A DNA stretch of 64,000 bases, taken from assembly GCA_938743325.2 (NCBI GenBank), contig OW568878.1:186001-250000 (forward strand), written 5' to 3'. This DNA is from Pycnococcus provasolii. Its lineage: Eukaryota > Chlorophyta > Pseudoscourfieldiophyceae > Pseudoscourfieldiales > Pycnococcaceae. Position 1 is the stretch's first letter. Each line of letters starts with the position of its first letter. Shown here one piece after another: positions 2,617 to 11,519 of this stretch. Both the position numbers and the translations under genes were made by a program. The notes below the pieces were generated by a model that saw only the letters and a program-made list of their open reading frames with translations, was not told the DNA's origin and did no database searches.

Positions 2617-2797
2617 GACGAGTGATCTGTATCCTGGATAATCACAGACACACAAAAAGCAGCACGTAAAGCAGCACAGCACCTATGAGGAGAGTAGAAT
2701 GAAGATGCAAAGCACGGGTCCCTGAGAGAGACGAATACGAATATCGGAATATCGGAAGGCTGTGGCTAAAAATTACCCCCCAGTGATTTCACCCCCA

Positions 2798-2923
2798 GGC
2801 AGTCCCTAGCACATCAAATTTTGCTATTTCCCCGAACCAGGGTCCCCCGAAAATTCATTTAAACCAGACTACAAGCCCGAACTTTTGCCGCCTATGGTCA
2901 ACGGTCTGTCAGCCAAGAACTCA
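2798..2923 (+). repeat. Left terminal inverted repeat, 126 bp
   Basis: Reads GGCAGTCCCTAGCACATC at its outer end and finishes GCCAAGAACTCA just before the ATG of the 525-aa gene at 2935. It is the reverse complement of 7365-7490. Its length means it probably also holds the promoter of the adjacent gene. Confidence 0.9.
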
Positions 2924-2934
2924 CTCCAGCAGTC

Positions 2935-4512
2935 ATGTCTATCGTCATGGCTGACGAGGTCCGTGCAACCGCCAGTGCTGCTACGCCAGTGCTTACACTT
3001 CCCGCCGCCGACGAAGATGACGGCAGCCTAGAAGACCTCGACAGCGACGACGACGTCGTGACTTCTCAGCCGAAGGAGGCACCGCGTCGGTGCCAGCTGC
3101 TGCACATGTCTATCGCTGACGAGGTACTTCCCGCCGCCGACGAAGATGACGGCAACCTAGAAGACCTCGACAGCGACGACGTCGTCGTGACTTCTCAGCC
3201 GAAGGAGGCACCGCGTCGGTGCCAGCTGCTGCACATGTCTATCGCTGACGAGGTCCCCGCAACCGCCAGTGCTGCTACGCCAGTGCTTACACTTCCCGCC
3301 GCCGACGAAGATGACGGCAGCCTAGAAGACCTCGACAGCGACGACGACGTCGTGACTTCTCAGCCGAAGGAGGCAGCACCGCCGCCGCCACCACCACCAC
3401 CGCATAGCAGGGGTCCTTATTTTACAGCAAAGATGCGAGAGCAACTCCACGAGTTGTTCCGCGCAGTCGCCGTCTCGTGCCAAGGCGAAGCCTTGAAGGA
3501 GGTGTCAACTTCAGCTATACTGAGTGCGATGAAGGAGCACGGCCCGGCAGTGACATCTGAGCGCGTGCAATTCGAGTGGGCATCCTGGTCCGGCGAATCT
3601 AGCACACGCGCTGGGACGAAACGGAGGAAGATAAGTAAGCCGCCTTCCAAACGCCAGGGCAAGCAAGTGGGATCGCGCAGGCACGAAGCAGAGCAATCGC
3701 GCAAAGCCAAGGAAGCTGAGGCGGCGAAGTACTTGGCAGTGAACGAACGCCGCCGAGCGGAAGAGCAGAGGGAGCAACGAAGCGTAGTCGAGACACTCAA
3801 GCGTGAGACAGAGAGGCTCGACGAAGCCGTGCAGCCGTGCGAGTGCTTTTTGCTAGGGGGCGTGGCCTTTTTGCCTGACGACATCAAGGCATGCGCGAAC
3901 GCGTTTGATGTGACGAAGCAGGTACGTGACGCGACGGCAACGCTGGTCGATGACAAGCCACACCTCGCCAGCCACATCTCGAGCATTACTGCGCTCGGAA
4001 CTCGTGCCTACGACGTACGGCAGAGCCTTGCCAAGGCGTGCCCACTTGAGAGCTGGGCAAAGAGCTTCCTAACTCATCGCGCAGCATCCGACCGTCCCGT
4101 ACCTGCTCTTCGCCTACAAGGAGCGGACGAACCAACTGAGAAGAAAAATACGCGAGGAAAATCGAAGGAGATGACGACTACGGTGCAGGCAAAGCATTGG
4201 CTCAACACAACATTCGTGGCGCAGCGAGACAGGTTGGTGGCATCGTACAACAAGGCAACCGCGCTCCTGGAGGGCGAAGACGCCAAAAGACACGGCCTCG
4301 CCGTCTGCACGCGCATAGGCAATCATCTGGACATTGGTGTCGCGGGTAACCGCCTATGCCCGCTCGCAGAGCTTGGCGAGGAAACAAAGGCGGCGGAGAA
4401 TGCACGCGAGCAACTCGCGAAACTTGCAGGCGTGAAGGAGACGCGGTCGGCGTATGTAGTCTCGACGGTGGAGGAAGGCAACAGCGCTGCATCGGCGCGC
4501 GTTTCCGGCTAA
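2935..4512 (+). CDS. Element gene A: acidic-repeat / basic coiled-coil protein of unknown function
   Basis: 525 aa from an ATG 12 bp inside the left inverted repeat. Residues 1-150 hold a near-identical repeat present three times (LPAADEDDGSLEDLDSDDD then VVTSQPKEA), a strongly acidic segment that has expanded by in-frame tandem duplication. A Pro run follows, then a basic stretch (TKRRKISKPPSKRQGK) like a nuclear localisation signal and a long Arg/Glu/Ala-rich coiled coil (about residues 250-310). The C-terminal 200 residues look globular and helical. I recognise no family. Position suggests an accessory protein of the transposon, such as a repeat-binding or targeting partner of the 917-aa protein; that role is inferred. 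Its stop lies 51 bp from the convergent partner's stop. Confidence 0.8.
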   Translation: MSIVMADEVRATASAATPVLTLPAADEDDGSLEDLDSDDDVVTSQPKEAPRRCQLLHMSIADEVLPAADEDDGNLEDLDSDDVVVTSQPKEAPRRCQLLHMSIADEVPATASAATPVLTLPAADEDDGSLEDLDSDDDVVTSQPKEAAPPPPPPPPHSRGPYFTAKMREQLHELFRAVAVSCQGEALKEVSTSAILSAMKEHGPAVTSERVQFEWASWSGESSTRAGTKRRKISKPPSKRQGKQVGSRRHEAEQSRKAKEAEAAKYLAVNERRRAEEQREQRSVVETLKRETERLDEAVQPCECFLLGGVAFLPDDIKACANAFDVTKQVRDATATLVDDKPHLASHISSITALGTRAYDVRQSLAKACPLESWAKSFLTHRAASDRPVPALRLQGADEPTEKKNTRGKSKEMTTTVQAKHWLNTTFVAQRDRLVASYNKATALLEGEDAKRHGLAVCTRIGNHLDIGVAGNRLCPLAELGEETKAAENAREQLAKLAGVKETRSAYVVSTVEEGNSAASARVSG

Positions 4513-4563
4513 ACATCTACTATAATTATTAATACTATTGCTATCTATCTATGATATTTTACC

Positions 4564-7317
4564 TTATACAATTTGTGGTTGTTTCTCTGTTCCTGATCCA
4601 TGACCACCGTCGTCGTCATGGTGCGCGTCTTTCTTTTCTCGGCTGTTCTTTCGCCTCTCCGAATCGTGCAATATCACCATTCCCACGTGCCCGGCAGCCC
4701 CCGGTGCGTGACCAGTTGGTGTTCCTTTGACATCTGTTTGTGCCCTCTTCAAATTTTCAGATCCCACCTTCCGGTATTCGTCGGAATTATGGATCAAGGC
4801 GTCTCCCTTGACGTCCTCGAACTTCCTGTCATCGCTTGGCTTGAACACGCGCCGTTTAGTGAGCCATCTCGTGGCATCTCGCGCCTCCATGCTTCTGTCC
4901 ACACACCGGCGCTTCAGTTCGTCGTCAGCTTGAACCACATGATCCGCCATCCCCAGGAAGTCGAACAATGTCGCTCGACACTGCTCTAACACCCCACCGT
5001 GGACACAGGCGTTTCGCCACGCCGTCTCGCTTGAAGCTGCGCGGCCCACGTGACGCTTGAGCACGCGGTTATTTTGCTCAATTATCCCGAAGTCGAGAGC
5101 TTGTCCTCTATGAGAAATCAGAGCTTCTCGCTGCGCTCTCACCTCAGGCGACGACAAGGTATGGTATGCCAAGTCCATCACCAATGCAGGACCGTAGACC
5201 ATGTGCCCTCGGCTGAACACGGTTGGAAGCAAGACGCGACGCGCAGCGAAGTAAAGTCGTGCCGCGTCATGATCTTTCCCACTCCGTCTTAGCCCAGATC
5301 TATACGCGGCTAGGGCTGGCACCTCGTCTCTCACCACGACGCGGTACGCGAAGCGAAACCGCCGATCTGTCTGAGCCCCGTCACACCACGCGATGAAATC
5401 CTTGACGTTGAAGTCGTCACCGCATGCCGTCGTCAAGTACTCGATGACGAACGCGTCCGTTATCGCCGGACGCAGGAAGTCGATGACGAACTCGTAGGCC
5501 TTGTGCAGATCTGTCGCCTTCGCAATGAAGGACTCGGCGTTCTCCCCGTTGTCGAAGCCCATGTGGATGGCCAGCTCCTTGCCGGCGAATGTCCAGAGCA
5601 ATTTGGTAATCATCCTCAGATAGACTGCCTCCTCGTGGCCTCCACCGAGGAGGCGGTGGAAGCGCACGTGCTTGATCGTGAACAGATCCTCATTGAGCGC
5701 CGCTCCCTCGTCGGTCAGCATGTACGCCCACTCCCTCTCCACCATGTCATCCTCGACGAAACCGCGCAACTTGACATACTCGCCAAATTTCTCGTAGATG
5801 AGAGACACAGATGTCGACGTCGGATTGAGGTTCATGATTGGCAATCCATCCTCCACGATCTTGCATCCCAACTGCGCGTCATTCTCATCCCCACTGCGCG
5901 TCTTTTGCCGCTTCTCCGTGGTGCTGTCTACACCACGATAGACTATAACTCCATCACGCTGAGGAACTTTTCGCTTCCCCGTCTCCATGAAGCGAGATTG
6001 TATTCCCGCACAAGCAGAATCTTTCTGCCACCTTTGATACTCTGACCAAGACCACACGCGGCACGTCTGCTCGAGCTCGTCCGTTTTGCATATTGGGCAA
6101 ATTCTTGCACGCCGAGGCAGCATCTTCCCACACCTCATGCCACCGAAAAATGTACCACATGGCTTCTCCTCAGGTCCGGTATCCTCCTCTTCGTGCGAAG
6201 GGCATTCTTCCTCCTCGTCTTGGTCGCCAAGCACCGCGTGCCAGGAGGATGATCCTCCTGTCTCATCCTTGAGAACAAAGCCACTGTCAAGAATCGAACG
6301 TGCCCGCTCGAGAATGTAAGTGTGCACCTGAGCGTCAAGAATTTCGCGGTCGTCGGCTGTCTCTTCCGCAAATTCCTTTGCAAGCTTCGTAAATGTGAAG
6401 CACTCTGGCGAGTGCTTCACATCCTTCTGTAGCTGCTTCGCACCACCTACAACGTGCGCGATCCGCATGTTCGTCACTATGGTGATGATGTGACGTGCGC
6501 ACAGGCGCGCGTGCCGTTGCCCCTTGTAGCTCGCGGAAATGTTGTCGAATAAGCATACGACATCCGTCCAACTGCACACGTCCACGTCTACAGATCTCGC
6601 GTACGAGGCGCGCTGCCGTGACAAGTCTCTGTCGTCCAGAGCGCCCGGAACGAGGCGCGCCACCATATTCACCGCCGTGGCACTGCCAGTCATCGCCTTC
6701 ACCACAAAAGAGGCGATGAAGCCAATCTCGAAAGCGGCTTTTGCTTTCGTTGCTGCTTGGAAAACGTGCGCGACTGCAAGGGCGAGATGCCTCGTTGCAC
6801 AGCTGTCGCCCTCCGTTTCTACCCCGCAAACGCGCAGCACATCCTTTAGAAACTCGACGAGCTTGGTCGCGTGTCCCTCTCGTAGAAAGTTGTCAACAGT
6901 GAACGACGGTGCATTTTCGAGGGTGGTGTGAGCAGTCACGGATGTAGAACTTCGGATATCATCAGCAATGTCTTGTACTAGTGTATGCACTCGAGTCGAC
7001 GGCGACGCCTCACTGCCTGAAGCCGCGCGCTCTTGTAGCTTGTAGAGCTCCTGGTTAGCCTTACTTAGAGCATCTGTAGCGAAGCCTAAGTTTCGCTTTT
7101 GTTGTTGAAGCTCGTCGCGTAGCTGCTCTTCGCGGCGTCGCGACTCATCGCGTAGCTGCTCTTCGCGGCGTCGCGACTCATCGCGTAGCTGCTCTTCGCG
7201 GCGTCGCGACTCCTCTAGCTCTTTGGAGAGAGAGTCGATCGTCTCTTTGTTCTTGACGTTCTCTCTCTCTGCTTGTCTCGCGTGTCGCGACGACGACGAA
7301 TCGAGTGTAGCTGGCAT
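4564..7317 (-). CDS. Element gene B: large putative transposase-like protein with zinc ribbon (possibly DUF6589/KDZ-like)
   Basis: 917 aa, ATG at 7317, 48 bp inside the right repeat. Residues 20-100 are coiled coil containing an 11-residue repeat (DESRRREEQLR, three copies). A hydrophobic helical part follows, then VVCLFDNISASYKG (Asp-Asn near residue 258), and a zinc-ribbon-like Cys pattern at about 387, 396, 407 and 410 (CG-x7-RCGK, CPIC). A second large domain follows, with GGGHEE near 558 and DFGIIEQNNRVLKRH near 742-756. The spaced D-N and late E-x-x-N-x-x-x-K blocks recall DUF6589 proteins and other large RNase-H-type transposases. I cannot run a profile search, so that match is tentative. 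It is the only plausible transposase in the element. Confidence 0.75.
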   Translation of the reverse strand: MPATLDSSSSRHARQAERENVKNKETIDSLSKELEESRRREEQLRDESRRREEQLRDESRRREEQLRDELQQQKRNLGFATDALSKANQELYKLQERAASGSEASPSTRVHTLVQDIADDIRSSTSVTAHTTLENAPSFTVDNFLREGHATKLVEFLKDVLRVCGVETEGDSCATRHLALAVAHVFQAATKAKAAFEIGFIASFVVKAMTGSATAVNMVARLVPGALDDRDLSRQRASYARSVDVDVCSWTDVVCLFDNISASYKGQRHARLCARHIITIVTNMRIAHVVGGAKQLQKDVKHSPECFTFTKLAKEFAEETADDREILDAQVHTYILERARSILDSGFVLKDETGGSSSWHAVLGDQDEEEECPSHEEEDTGPEEKPCGTFFGGMRCGKMLPRRARICPICKTDELEQTCRVWSWSEYQRWQKDSACAGIQSRFMETGKRKVPQRDGVIVYRGVDSTTEKRQKTRSGDENDAQLGCKIVEDGLPIMNLNPTSTSVSLIYEKFGEYVKLRGFVEDDMVEREWAYMLTDEGAALNEDLFTIKHVRFHRLLGGGHEEAVYLRMITKLLWTFAGKELAIHMGFDNGENAESFIAKATDLHKAYEFVIDFLRPAITDAFVIEYLTTACGDDFNVKDFIAWCDGAQTDRRFRFAYRVVVRDEVPALAAYRSGLRRSGKDHDAARLYFAARRVLLPTVFSRGHMVYGPALVMDLAYHTLSSPEVRAQREALISHRGQALDFGIIEQNNRVLKRHVGRAASSETAWRNACVHGGVLEQCRATLFDFLGMADHVVQADDELKRRCVDRSMEARDATRWLTKRRVFKPSDDRKFEDVKGDALIHNSDEYRKVGSENLKRAQTDVKGTPTGHAPGAAGHVGMVILHDSERRKNSREKKDAHHDDDGGHGSGTEKQPQIV

Positions 7318-7364
7318 GAAGAGTCGAATGCACTGTACGCAAGAGGGGCGGCCAGCTGTGCGGC

Positions 7365-7490
7365 TGAGTTCTTGGCTGACAGACCGTTGACCATAGGCGG
7401 CAAAAGTTCGGGCTTGTAGTCTGGTTTAAATGAATTTTCGGGGGACCCTGGTTCGGGGAAATAGCAAAATTTGATGTGCTAGGGACTGCC
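7365..7490 (-). repeat. Right terminal inverted repeat, 126 bp
   Basis: Exact reverse complement of 2798-2923, ending GTGCTAGGGACTGCC at the outer edge. The flanking AGGGGCAG pairs imperfectly with CCCCCA on the left, so the true terminus could extend four or five bases further. Confidence 0.9.
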
Positions 7491-7552
7491 AGGGGCAGAC
7501 AGCCAGAGAAGAGACCAATGCAATGTTGTGCAATGGAATGCCCCACCACTTC

Positions 7553-7695
7553 CAGGGAACCGGGGATCCACCAGGGAACCGGTCTGGGAACCGGGGATTG
7601 CATCAGGGAACCGGGGATCCACCAGGGAACCGGGGATCCACCAGGGAACCGGGGATCCACCAGGGAACCCCATAAACACCAGGGAACCGGGGACC
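7553..7695 (+). repeat. 19-bp GC-rich minisatellite
   Basis: About seven to eight units of AGGGAACCGGGGATCCACC, the central three identical and the outer ones degenerate. It starts about 60 bp beyond the right end of the transposon. Open frames through it encode only Pro/Gly/Arg-rich repeats and are not genes. The rest of 7491-8159 holds nothing recognisable apart from C/G-rich short palindromes around 7980-8110. Confidence 0.85.
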
Positions 7696-8159
7696 CTTTC
7701 CTCTGTGAAGGTGGAAAAATTCTTACGGGGATTCACCATTGGAACCAAATAAAATAAGTACTACTCAAAAAACCAGGGGTTCAAGACTCTGGTTCAAGAG
7801 AAGGATCCCCACCTACAGTAATAAGGATCCCGGGATCCCCACACTACTCGTACACACCCCCACACACATACAGGGAAACATTCAGGCACAGGGAAGAGTA
7901 AGAAGTTTTTAGGCCTAATACGCTACATAAGAATCACCCAACCGTGTATCCCCCCTAGGTGCTCATATACCAGAGAAAAACACCGGGGCACGGGCAACCT
8001 CCCGAGCCCAGGGGGTGGGCACTGGGCACCCCTCCTCCGGGAGACCTGATTTCATCAGGGCACACTCCGGGGAGTTTCGGGAAGCTCTCCCCCCCGGGGG
8101 AGGTTTGGAGAACGAACCCTCCTGTCAACCGAATCAGAAAAAGAACAAGTGTGCGAATC

Positions 8160-11100
8160 ATGGCGATGGCGATGGACACAAATGGACTCCCTATGCCTTT
8201 AGAGGAGGAGTCACCTGCCTCTTTGCCTTTATTGTTGCGTCGTCACAGCGAAGGACGGCTTCGTCATCGTCATCGTCATGGTCGTCGTTCATCCAGGGTT
8301 CGTTTCATTACGAATGCGCGCTCTCAATATAACTCGCTCATGGATGCGCCGGCGGTTCTCCGTGTTTTGTCAAACGTGGGGGGCGCTTCACCACCCTTAC
8401 CGGATCCTCTTTATCACCAAAGAGGGGCAGCAGCAGCATCTCGTCGTCCTTGGGCGGCGTCTTTGTCGGCGTCTTTGTCGGCGGCGGCGGAGAATCGTAC
8501 CTATGGTGGGGATTATTATCGATCGTCTCTGGCTTCGTCGTACCCTCCGGGGGTTGGGCACTTCTTGAGATTAGCTGATAAGGCGGCGTCGAGACAAGAC
8601 GCGTACGCGTGCCTGCAAGCGCTCAGGAAATGTGCGCCGGAACGCTCGCACGAAAGAAACACGACGACAGACGGCGACGGAAACGACCTTGACGCGCCGA
8701 CGCCGCCGAAAGACGACGACATGCCGACCCCGAAAAGAAGATCGCCGAACGCGCTCGCGCGAGCTAACGCGACGGACGTCGTCGCGAGGATCGTCGCCAC
8801 GCCGTTCGAACAAAGCGCGAAAACCGACCCGTCGAGCTTGCGGGCCGTCAGAAGAGAGGCGGTCAGGACGCTGAGGATACTATGCGTCTCCACAGCAGCT
8901 CGAGAAGGGGCGCCGGAGGCGGCGGGCGCCATCGTCGGAATCGTACCCGCACTCTTCAAAGCCATGGCGGACAGCGAACTGTTCGAGGATGCCGTGTACG
9001 CCTGCGAGGAAGTGCTCGCGGCAGGGGGGGCTGGCGTCACCCTCAGCCTCTCGAAGTGCGCGCCGTACCTCAGAAAGCTCATCGTGCGCCTGAGTCCCAA
9101 CAAACTTGCCATTTTGTGCCGAGTGCTTGCATTCTGCGTCGTCGAGCCAGATGCACCAGCACCGGGAGTTACCATGTGGGGGGATACGGAGGTGGAAGCC
9201 ATGCGCCACGCCGACGACGACGACAACGACGATGTCGACGACGATGACAACAACAACAACAACAACAACAGCAACGAGAACGACGACGACGACGGAAGCG
9301 ACCATCATCGCCTCAACCGGCATATGAAATCAGCCGCACACCGACCACCGTACCTTTCTCCACCTCCCGTATTCGACGTCAACTTCAATGACGAACAACG
9401 CCGCAGTTCGGAATCATCCACTAGCACTAGTTTCGTTGACGAAAACAACAACAAAGTCAATTATGCCGACGTATCGTCGTCGTCGTCGTCGTCGCCGGAC
9501 GGAACGCCCGTCGCATTTGGTCCAGACTGCCGTGGTGTGAATGCCGCGACGGGAGCGAACCATGGCGTTCTTGTCAATGCGTGCCCGGACGTGTTTGAGA
9601 GACTGCTCAGTGTCCTCAAGGCGCCCCCCGAAGGTCTTGTCGGACCAGGTGCGACCGCCATGGACGCCGCCGCGCCTCGCGTCGAGGCGCTGCTTGTTCT
9701 GTGTGCACTTTGCGCCGGACCTGAGCGCAACAGAACGCAGGACGAGCTCGCGAGGCTTGGCCTCGCGAAAGTGCTGTGCACACTCTTCGACGAGGCGTGG
9801 GCGCCGGAACGTGCTAGAGGTGGCGCGGCCACGTCCAACGCCTCGACAACAGCCCAAGGGGGTACCAACGCCGCTCGCATTCGGCCGCTCGCGGAGTTTG
9901 TGCGAAGTGCTGCAGCGCTCGCGGAGGGTGCCGAGGAGGAGGAAGAAGGCGATCGACTGTTCGAGGAGGCTATGCGCGAGCTGATGGACCAGGCTGTTGC
10001 TGCGGCAGCTGCCGCCGTGGGACGAGATGACGATCAGCCGCCGGCTGACGACAGGTCGGCGGACGATGCCCTTCACGGCCCGAACGGCGTGCACGGACCA
10101 GGGTGCACGTGCGACCCCGTCTCCGCCATCAAGGTTCAGATTCTGAGGCTTGCACATAACTTCTGCGATCGAGGATGCGAGGATAATTCTGCGAACAAGG
10201 CGACGCTCGTTGCCCCTCAGGGTGGCCCCCGTGGCAACCTCGGCTTCATCGGCCGTGTCGTGGATACGTTGCTGCAGAGCCGTCTCGATGCACCGCCTAG
10301 ATTTTGGCTTGCCAGCTGCTGTGAGGCATTCCTGCGAGGGAGCGACACGACGAGGCGAGAGCTGGTAGCGAAACGTGGCTTGCTGGAGCACCTCGCCAGT
10401 CTGGCGAGCGATGCCGCGGCACCCGCGGCGGCGCTGCAGGCAACGTTCGACCTCCTCGGAGAGCTCGTTCGTGGCCACGGCGGACTGCTGCTCCGATTAA
10501 GCCGGATCGTCGAGGGAAAGACTGCCATTGAGATTGACAAATCCCGCGACGCGACGTCGGCGTCGGTGTCGGCGTCGGTGTCGGCGTCGACGATCAGGGA
10601 CGGCATGCATGCGTTGGAGGCGGTACGTGCCGCCGCCACAGCCTCGGCTCCTCGTCGGGGACGATCCATATTGCCACGCACAACCCTTGAGGCGCTCGCG
10701 TCAGCCGCAAGCAGTCGCCTCGTGGATTCGAACGTGTTCCTTCGTGCACTGTGGCTGAGCTTCGACGCGTTGGAGATGCCGATGCGGGGGGAGGACCGCG
10801 ACGGAGACGGAGACACGCTAGCATCTGCCACCGCATCCCTTCGCCTCGACGACTCACCTTCGACGTCGACGTCGACGTCGACGCTGACGAGGACAGCACC
10901 ATCCTCCTTCACTTCCTCCGCCACCCTGGTTGCTGGCATCGTTCCCGGGTTGGGCCTCTCGCCTCACGAGGCTGAGGAGCTGTCGCGCAGCAGGCTCGCT
11001 CGTTGGGCTGGAGGCCGTCGCCTTCCTCTGCTCCGTGACCTCATGGGAGCGGTGCTGGCTACCGAGCTTTCGCAGGAGAGCATGTGTGTGGCAAACACCG

Positions 11101-11519
11101 CGCTTGCGGCGCTGCTTCTGAGCGCGCGTCGCGGATCTCTGGAGGATGACCTGAGCGCCGTTCGGCGTCTGTGCGCGTTGGAGCTGGACGCCGTTCCGCA
11201 TGGCGACGCGGAAGCTGACGAGCTGAGCCGCCGTCGTTTGCACGCGCTGACGAATTTCCGCGGCGTGCTTGACGCTTGGCGTCGTTACTACGCGCGTCGC
11301 GGCCGCGACCGCGACGCTCTCCGTCGCGCGGGCGGCGCCTCGTTCGAGGATTGGTGGGGCTTGGTGGCTCGGTTAGCCGCCCCCGCTGGTCCCGCGGACT
11401 CTCTGACGACGCACATCAACGAGCTTCGCGCGGAGCGTCGTCGTCGTTCGAAACACAGTTGTTCATCTCACCGCACGCATACGGTGGTGCAAGGAGACAG
11501 CCTGAGCCGACGAAGTTAA
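8160..11519 (+). CDS. TRPC4AP/TRUSS-like protein (DUF3689), armadillo-type
   Basis: 1119 aa from ATG 8160; an upstream in-frame GTG exists and the start could be later (ATG 8341). The C-terminal half follows animal TRPC4AP block by block: VEALLVLCALCAGPERNRTQ, CTCDPVSAIKVQILRLAHNF, FWLASCCEAFLRG, KRGLLEHLA, FDLLGELV, LVDSN, and LTNFRGVLDAWRRYY near the end. The N-terminal half holds the helical part ending ILCRVLAFCVVE. The animal protein is about 800 aa; the extra length is low complexity, notably an Asp/Asn run near residue 350. In animals TRPC4AP is a substrate receptor of CUL4-DDB1 ubiquitin ligase; the same role here is inferred. Orthology looks strong. Confidence 0.85.
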   Translation: MAMAMDTNGLPMPLEEESPASLPLLLRRHSEGRLRHRHRHGRRSSRVRFITNARSQYNSLMDAPAVLRVLSNVGGASPPLPDPLYHQRGAAAASRRPWAASLSASLSAAAENRTYGGDYYRSSLASSYPPGVGHFLRLADKAASRQDAYACLQALRKCAPERSHERNTTTDGDGNDLDAPTPPKDDDMPTPKRRSPNALARANATDVVARIVATPFEQSAKTDPSSLRAVRREAVRTLRILCVSTAAREGAPEAAGAIVGIVPALFKAMADSELFEDAVYACEEVLAAGGAGVTLSLSKCAPYLRKLIVRLSPNKLAILCRVLAFCVVEPDAPAPGVTMWGDTEVEAMRHADDDDNDDVDDDDNNNNNNNSNENDDDDGSDHHRLNRHMKSAAHRPPYLSPPPVFDVNFNDEQRRSSESSTSTSFVDENNNKVNYADVSSSSSSSPDGTPVAFGPDCRGVNAATGANHGVLVNACPDVFERLLSVLKAPPEGLVGPGATAMDAAAPRVEALLVLCALCAGPERNRTQDELARLGLAKVLCTLFDEAWAPERARGGAATSNASTTAQGGTNAARIRPLAEFVRSAAALAEGAEEEEEGDRLFEEAMRELMDQAVAAAAAAVGRDDDQPPADDRSADDALHGPNGVHGPGCTCDPVSAIKVQILRLAHNFCDRGCEDNSANKATLVAPQGGPRGNLGFIGRVVDTLLQSRLDAPPRFWLASCCEAFLRGSDTTRRELVAKRGLLEHLASLASDAAAPAAALQATFDLLGELVRGHGGLLLRLSRIVEGKTAIEIDKSRDATSASVSASVSASTIRDGMHALEAVRAAATASAPRRGRSILPRTTLEALASAASSRLVDSNVFLRALWLSFDALEMPMRGEDRDGDGDTLASATASLRLDDSPSTSTSTSTLTRTAPSSFTSSATLVAGIVPGLGLSPHEAEELSRSRLARWAGGRRLPLLRDLMGAVLATELSQESMCVANTALAALLLSARRGSLEDDLSAVRRLCALELDAVPHGDAEADELSRRRLHALTNFRGVLDAWRRYYARRGRDRDALRRAGGASFEDWWGLVARLAAPAGPADSLTTHINELRAERRRRSKHSCSSHRTHTVVQGDSLSRRS

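Follow-up and report, generated by a model that had tools for sequence, protein, structure and literature searches.

What kind of element lies between two identical inverted repeats that enclose little more than two convergent genes, and which protein would move it? The question is raised by a stretch of 64,000 nucleotides from Pycnococcus provasolii (contig OW568878.1, positions 186,001 to 250,000; the window in what follows), in which a first-pass annotation had described an apparently intact transposon. The element in question, 4,689 bp long and located at window positions 2800-7488, belongs to a DNA transposon family. We consider it likely that it is an autonomous cut-and-paste transposon in which gene B encodes a DDE transposase related to the DUF6589 proteins and gene A a partner protein. 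Three features of class II elements with terminal inverted repeats (TIRs) are present, namely the TIRs themselves, a target-site duplication of fixed length at all three intact elements, and related copies at unrelated sites; together with the two related intact elements of the same layout found elsewhere in the genome, they uphold the description of the locus as a transposon.

The inverted arms at 2793-2923 and 7365-7495 pair with each other, and from 2798 to 2923 every letter agrees. The exact identity of the ends had thus been described correctly, but their length of 126 bp has to be amended: the outermost GG/CC belongs to the target duplication, and the TIR proper, which begins CAGTCCCT, measures 124 bp (Table 1). 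All 97 perfect inverted 30-mer pairs in the window derive from these TIRs, and none lies elsewhere. As annotated, only two large frames are packed against the repeats, arranged tail to tail: A begins 11 bp and B 47 bp in from its repeat, and the two converge with a gap of 51 bp.

Table 1. Features of the window element and its two intact relatives (window positions, or positions in the locus named).
Feature	Coordinates	Strand	Remarks
Left target-site duplication, CCAGG	2795-2799		same length and CCWGG consensus at the C16 and C11 elements
Left TIR, 124 bp	2800-2923	+	starts CAGTCCCTAGC; 100% identical to right arm
Gene A, 525 amino acids	2935-4512	+	open reading frame
Gene B, 917 amino acids, candidate DDE transposase	4564-7317	-	open reading frame
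Right TIR, 124 bp	7365-7488	-	pairs with left arm, 100% identity
Right target-site duplication, CCAGG	7489-7493		matches left CCAGG
C16 element, 4,273 bp	L015 3245-7517		B 812 amino acids, A 432 amino acids
C11 element, 4,249 bp	L016 2101-6349		B 804 amino acids, A 432 amino acids

The genome (32.3 Mb in 46 contigs) was searched with the TIR, A and B as queries, the first-pass annotation having recommended a search with the end. This led to two further intact elements, one on contig C16 and one on C11, that share the convergent two-gene layout of the window element. These two have identical 185-bp TIRs that also begin CAGTCCCT, their genes lie 74 bp apart, and in B they show 27% identity to the window element. 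Aligned with each other, they have 4,276 columns, of which 46 are mismatches and 30 gaps (98.5% identity by BLAST), and a genome search with the C16 end returned four matches, all of them ends of this pair.

Relics of the family were found at nine further places: C23, C6, C5, C1, C16:393620, the ends of C16, C32 and C33, and C2. The C23 relic is the closest copy of the window element and retains an A frame that is 79% identical along with a single end (78% over 114 columns); beyond A the similarity is lost, and the examined stretch, which reaches 2.8 kb past A, shows no second end. On C6 an A-like frame, at 34% identity, persists with a single end; C5, C1 and C16:393620 hold fragments of B, and C2 holds a piece of A that contains a stop. 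A B-like fragment also occurs close to three contig ends, those of C16, C32 and C33 (L041, L042 and L043), within a subtelomeric repeat that is nearly identical at all three, so that these places represent one lineage. Close to a B relic on C16, at L073 1829, CCAGG directly followed by CAGTCCCCC is possibly an eroded end, for which no partner end was found. Of 14 matches to the B protein of C16, two are the C16 and C11 elements, two the window B, five relics included above and five uncounted: those on C8, C32:396806, C39 and C10 are Asp-rich or low-complexity alignments that vanish with a low-complexity filter, and that on C26, exact over 21 residues that are partly PPPPPSSSSS, is either a 63-bp scrap of B or chance. 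The A protein of C16 likewise gave 14 matches, comprising the two intact elements, the C2 relic, and 11 on the Pro-rich N-terminus that were judged to be chance.

The three intact elements have a further property in common, in that the flanking duplication is CCAGG at the window element and CCTGG at both the C16 and the C11 element. CCWGG starts at 112 of the 64,000 window positions (0.18%), and at this rate the chance of three independent CCWGG insertions is about 5e-9. The pattern CCWGGCAGTCCCT occurs seven times in the genome, six of these being the ends of the three intact elements, against a single occurrence of the reversed control pattern; in the printed flank of the seventh match, on C40, further likeness is absent by eye. 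Two of the six matches in one pattern search, with three mismatches each, were taken as chance. A palindromic target allows the duplication to be read as 1, 3 or 5 bp, and 5 bp is the simplest reading because the C6 and C23 relics begin CAGTCCCT without GG before it; the remaining end of each of these relics is without a flanking CCWGG. When the joined flanks of the window and C11 elements were searched in this genome only, no paralogous empty site was found: the window join returned its own flanks, at query 1-120 and 116-240 and thus overlapping by 5 bases, as well as two short stretches of the adjacent minisatellite, and the C11 join likewise returned its own flanks, overlapping by 6 bases. 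Our verdict, drawn from these flanks, is that the transposon lineage appears to choose CCWGG as its target.

The identity of the enzyme is approached through gene B. The three B sequences, which represent two lineages, and the relic fragments were compared, and conserved motifs appear in the order [FW]DN (D258), [ST]DxGA (D536), GxGHE, D[LT]HK and ExxNxxLK (E747); in the window protein D258 stands in FDN, D536 in TDEGA and E747 in EQNNRVLK. The relic at C16:393620 contains [ST]DxGA, GxGHE and D[LT]HK, and the subtelomeric relics contain ExxNxxLK. D258, D536 and E747 could form a DDE triad, and many further acidic residues of B are likewise conserved. The B proteins of C16 and C11 match the Pfam family DUF6589 (PF20231, function unknown) over profile positions 287-381 of 410, with E values of 1.2e-4 and 1.4e-4, and the matching stretch includes ExxNxxLK. 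In fungi and cnidarians, DUF6589 proteins presumably show the same succession of motifs, DN, then GDQLT-like, then EHxNR, which we treat as a lead and not as a test. On the strength of motifs and profile match, B is most likely an RNase H-like DDE transposase that is a member, or a distant relative, of the DUF6589 proteins.

Other searches with B point to no established family. Pfam listed no transposase model for B at E<=10, in a search whose HMMER filters drop most matches above 0.1, and in which, as a control, DDE_1 was recognised (E 3.9e-9) in a neighbour of the C11 element. That neighbour, a protein of 954 amino acids, is encoded at L016 7007-9871, and we take it to be CENP-B/pogo-like. 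The matches in NCBIfam and PHROGs all have E values of at least 0.046, and none is a transposase; a profile search of solved structures gave nothing credible for B, and the viral contigs scanned with B, the C16 B or the core held no relatives. A phmmer search paired residues 240-412 of the C16 B protein with a protein that has a PWWP domain (E 8.2e-5); this match spans a poly-Asp run at 391-403 and was set aside as compositional without further test. The doubt first expressed about the transposase family was well placed: window B matches no family credibly, and the C16 and C11 proteins match only DUF6589, below its cut-off. An in-frame repeat with a 33-bp period, coding RDESRREEQL, lies in gene B at window 7111-7215, and the N-terminus looks repeat-expanded.

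Gene A has a layout of its own, consisting of a repeated acidic N-terminus, a Pro-rich stretch, three predicted helices, a basic linker and a long coiled coil; its N-terminus, too, looks repeat-expanded, with in-frame repeats at window 2947-3375 whose copies lie 129 and 165 bp apart. Family searches with A, solved structures included, gave no credible match. Residues 156-304 (149 residues), predicted without relatives, reached a mean predicted local distance difference test score (pLDDT) of 70.8 and a predicted template modelling score of 0.32, and in the model a long helix, predicted with confidence, follows three short ones whose confidence is low to moderate. A Foldseek search with this model returned nothing at E<=0.001; the best matches, none of them significant, include a DNA-binding domain from a plasmid protein at E 2.0 and a homeodomain at E 3.3. 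From the predicted helices, linker and coiled coil, A is probably a DNA-binding, oligomerising partner.

Taken together, these observations suggest a mechanism in which B would bind the long TIRs, cut at the CA..TG termini and insert the element into CCWGG at a break staggered by 5 bp, so that CCWGG would remain on both sides. A would supply DNA binding and oligomerisation through its three helices, basic linker and coiled coil, much as the Myb-type partner does in two-gene PIF/Harbinger elements. In this scheme we infer the fold of B, catalysis by D258, D536 and E747, the role of A, and current activity.

How does such an element relate to the systems already known? PIF/Harbinger and ISL2EU elements carry a transposase and a second, probably DNA-binding protein inside their TIRs, so the two-gene layout is less unusual than the first-pass annotation held. 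The second gene of PIF/Harbinger is Myb/SANT-like; A shows three predicted helices, and its best structural matches are not significant (E at least 2). The transposases of the Kyakuja-Dileera-Zisupton (KDZ) group, which are large, invite comparison with B, and Transib elements make a duplication of 5 bp, as here. Target duplications nevertheless separate the element from two of these groups: in the excerpt of PMC12730594 consulted, PIF/Harbinger and ISL2EU duplications are 0, 2 or 3 bp, and those of KDZ, in which Zisupton has TIRs, are 7-8 bp, against 5 bp here. Neither group has a Pfam model among those listed for B.

We could not place the lineage, from its sequences, in a named superfamily, and the alternative that it is a divergent member of one whose duplications are 5 bp or whose ends are CA..TG (hAT5, or a CMCT lineage such as Transib), lying beyond Pfam recognition, is unlikely. 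In the same excerpt (PMC12730594), CMCT lineages mostly have CA..TG termini with duplications of 2-5 bp, both of which agree with the CAGTC..GACTG termini and 5-bp duplication of the window element, and hAT families with 5-bp duplications exist. The interior of B speaks differently. Given the assignment of D536 and E747, the C(2)C and H(3-4)H of the CMCT clade between the second D and the last E were not found in B; HxxxH occurs in the interval at 550 in the window protein and at 636 in that of C16, but in different alignment columns, a comparison which assumes that D536 and E747 are catalytic. The motifs typical of the Dada, hAT, Kolobok, MuDR and P group are not conserved there either under this assignment, and the Pfam search described above stands against such membership as well.

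Two other explanations concern not the family but the nature of the locus. Catalysis by B is only predicted, and other transposases exist in the genome, among them the DDE_1 protein that adjoins the C11 element, so that the element might be non-autonomous or passenger-bearing and moved by one of them, with A and B as cargo. We regard this as quite improbable: the A and B pair lies inside the TIRs and fills them in all three intact elements, across two lineages only 27% identical in B, and cargo would be expected to vary. That the element arose through misassembly, or is host DNA that carries an inverted duplication, might be suspected from the single known intact copy of the window-element subfamily; it is hardly credible when the C16 and C11 elements independently show the same plan with their own TIRs and their own CCWGG duplications, and relics occur elsewhere.

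Several findings nonetheless weigh against an autonomous transposon driven by a DUF6589-related B. The DUF6589 matches score 21.3 and 21.2 bits, where the curated cut-off is 27; as the proteins that give them are near-identical, the two amount to one observation; and neither window B, nor its core, nor three relic fragments match DUF6589 in Pfam. An AlphaFold model of full-length window B, predicted without relatives, has a mean pLDDT of 40.2 and is unusable for the fold. The window element is without an intact near-identical sister or an empty site in this genome. Ratios of nonsynonymous to synonymous substitution rates (0.62 for A between window and C23; 0.42 for A and 1.21 for B between C16 and C11) give no clear sign of purifying selection, although the C16/C11 counts are small and the differences clustered.

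As to age, the identity of the TIRs and the open state of the frames point to recent movement, and the case is clearest for the C16 and C11 pair. The earlier argument, that near-identity of the ends implies recent movement or gene conversion, holds most directly for that pair and less so for the window copy with no such sister, which may have moved recently, judging by TIR identity and open frames, or whose arms may have been made alike by arm-to-arm gene conversion. The differences between the C16 and C11 elements are not scattered but tightly clustered, and in one place some 60 bp have been replaced; conversion from a third, divergent copy may account for this pattern.

Whether the lineage deserves a rank of its own is a wider question. 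We propose tentatively, and at slightly less than an even chance, that it represents an undescribed superfamily of two-gene DDE transposons with a DUF6589 core and the CCWGG palindrome, which contains a symmetric CWG cytosine site, as target. In the open-licence PubMed Central literature no paper was found on DUF6589 or on a CCWGG transposon with a target-site duplication, and no matching description stood among the titles and abstract openings listed, in part the best 20 of 694, 15 of 30 and 8 of 18, Repbase being outside the comparison. If the proposal is true, DUF6589 proteins of other eukaryotes would be transposases or their domesticated descendants, and the family would gain a mechanistic context in the form of a complete element with ends, duplications and a partner gene. 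It would also provide a sequence-specific 5-bp target rule that can be tested, and transposons with a strict short target are of interest as integration tools.

The window element has a methyltransferase frame on one side (1207-2682) and a DUF3689 frame on the other (7959-11519), and Rfam and tRNA scans of the window gave no matches. The right end is adjoined by a minisatellite at 7536-7696, built of units of about 19 bp (CCAGGGAACCGGGGATC-like), several of which hold the CCAGG target motif.
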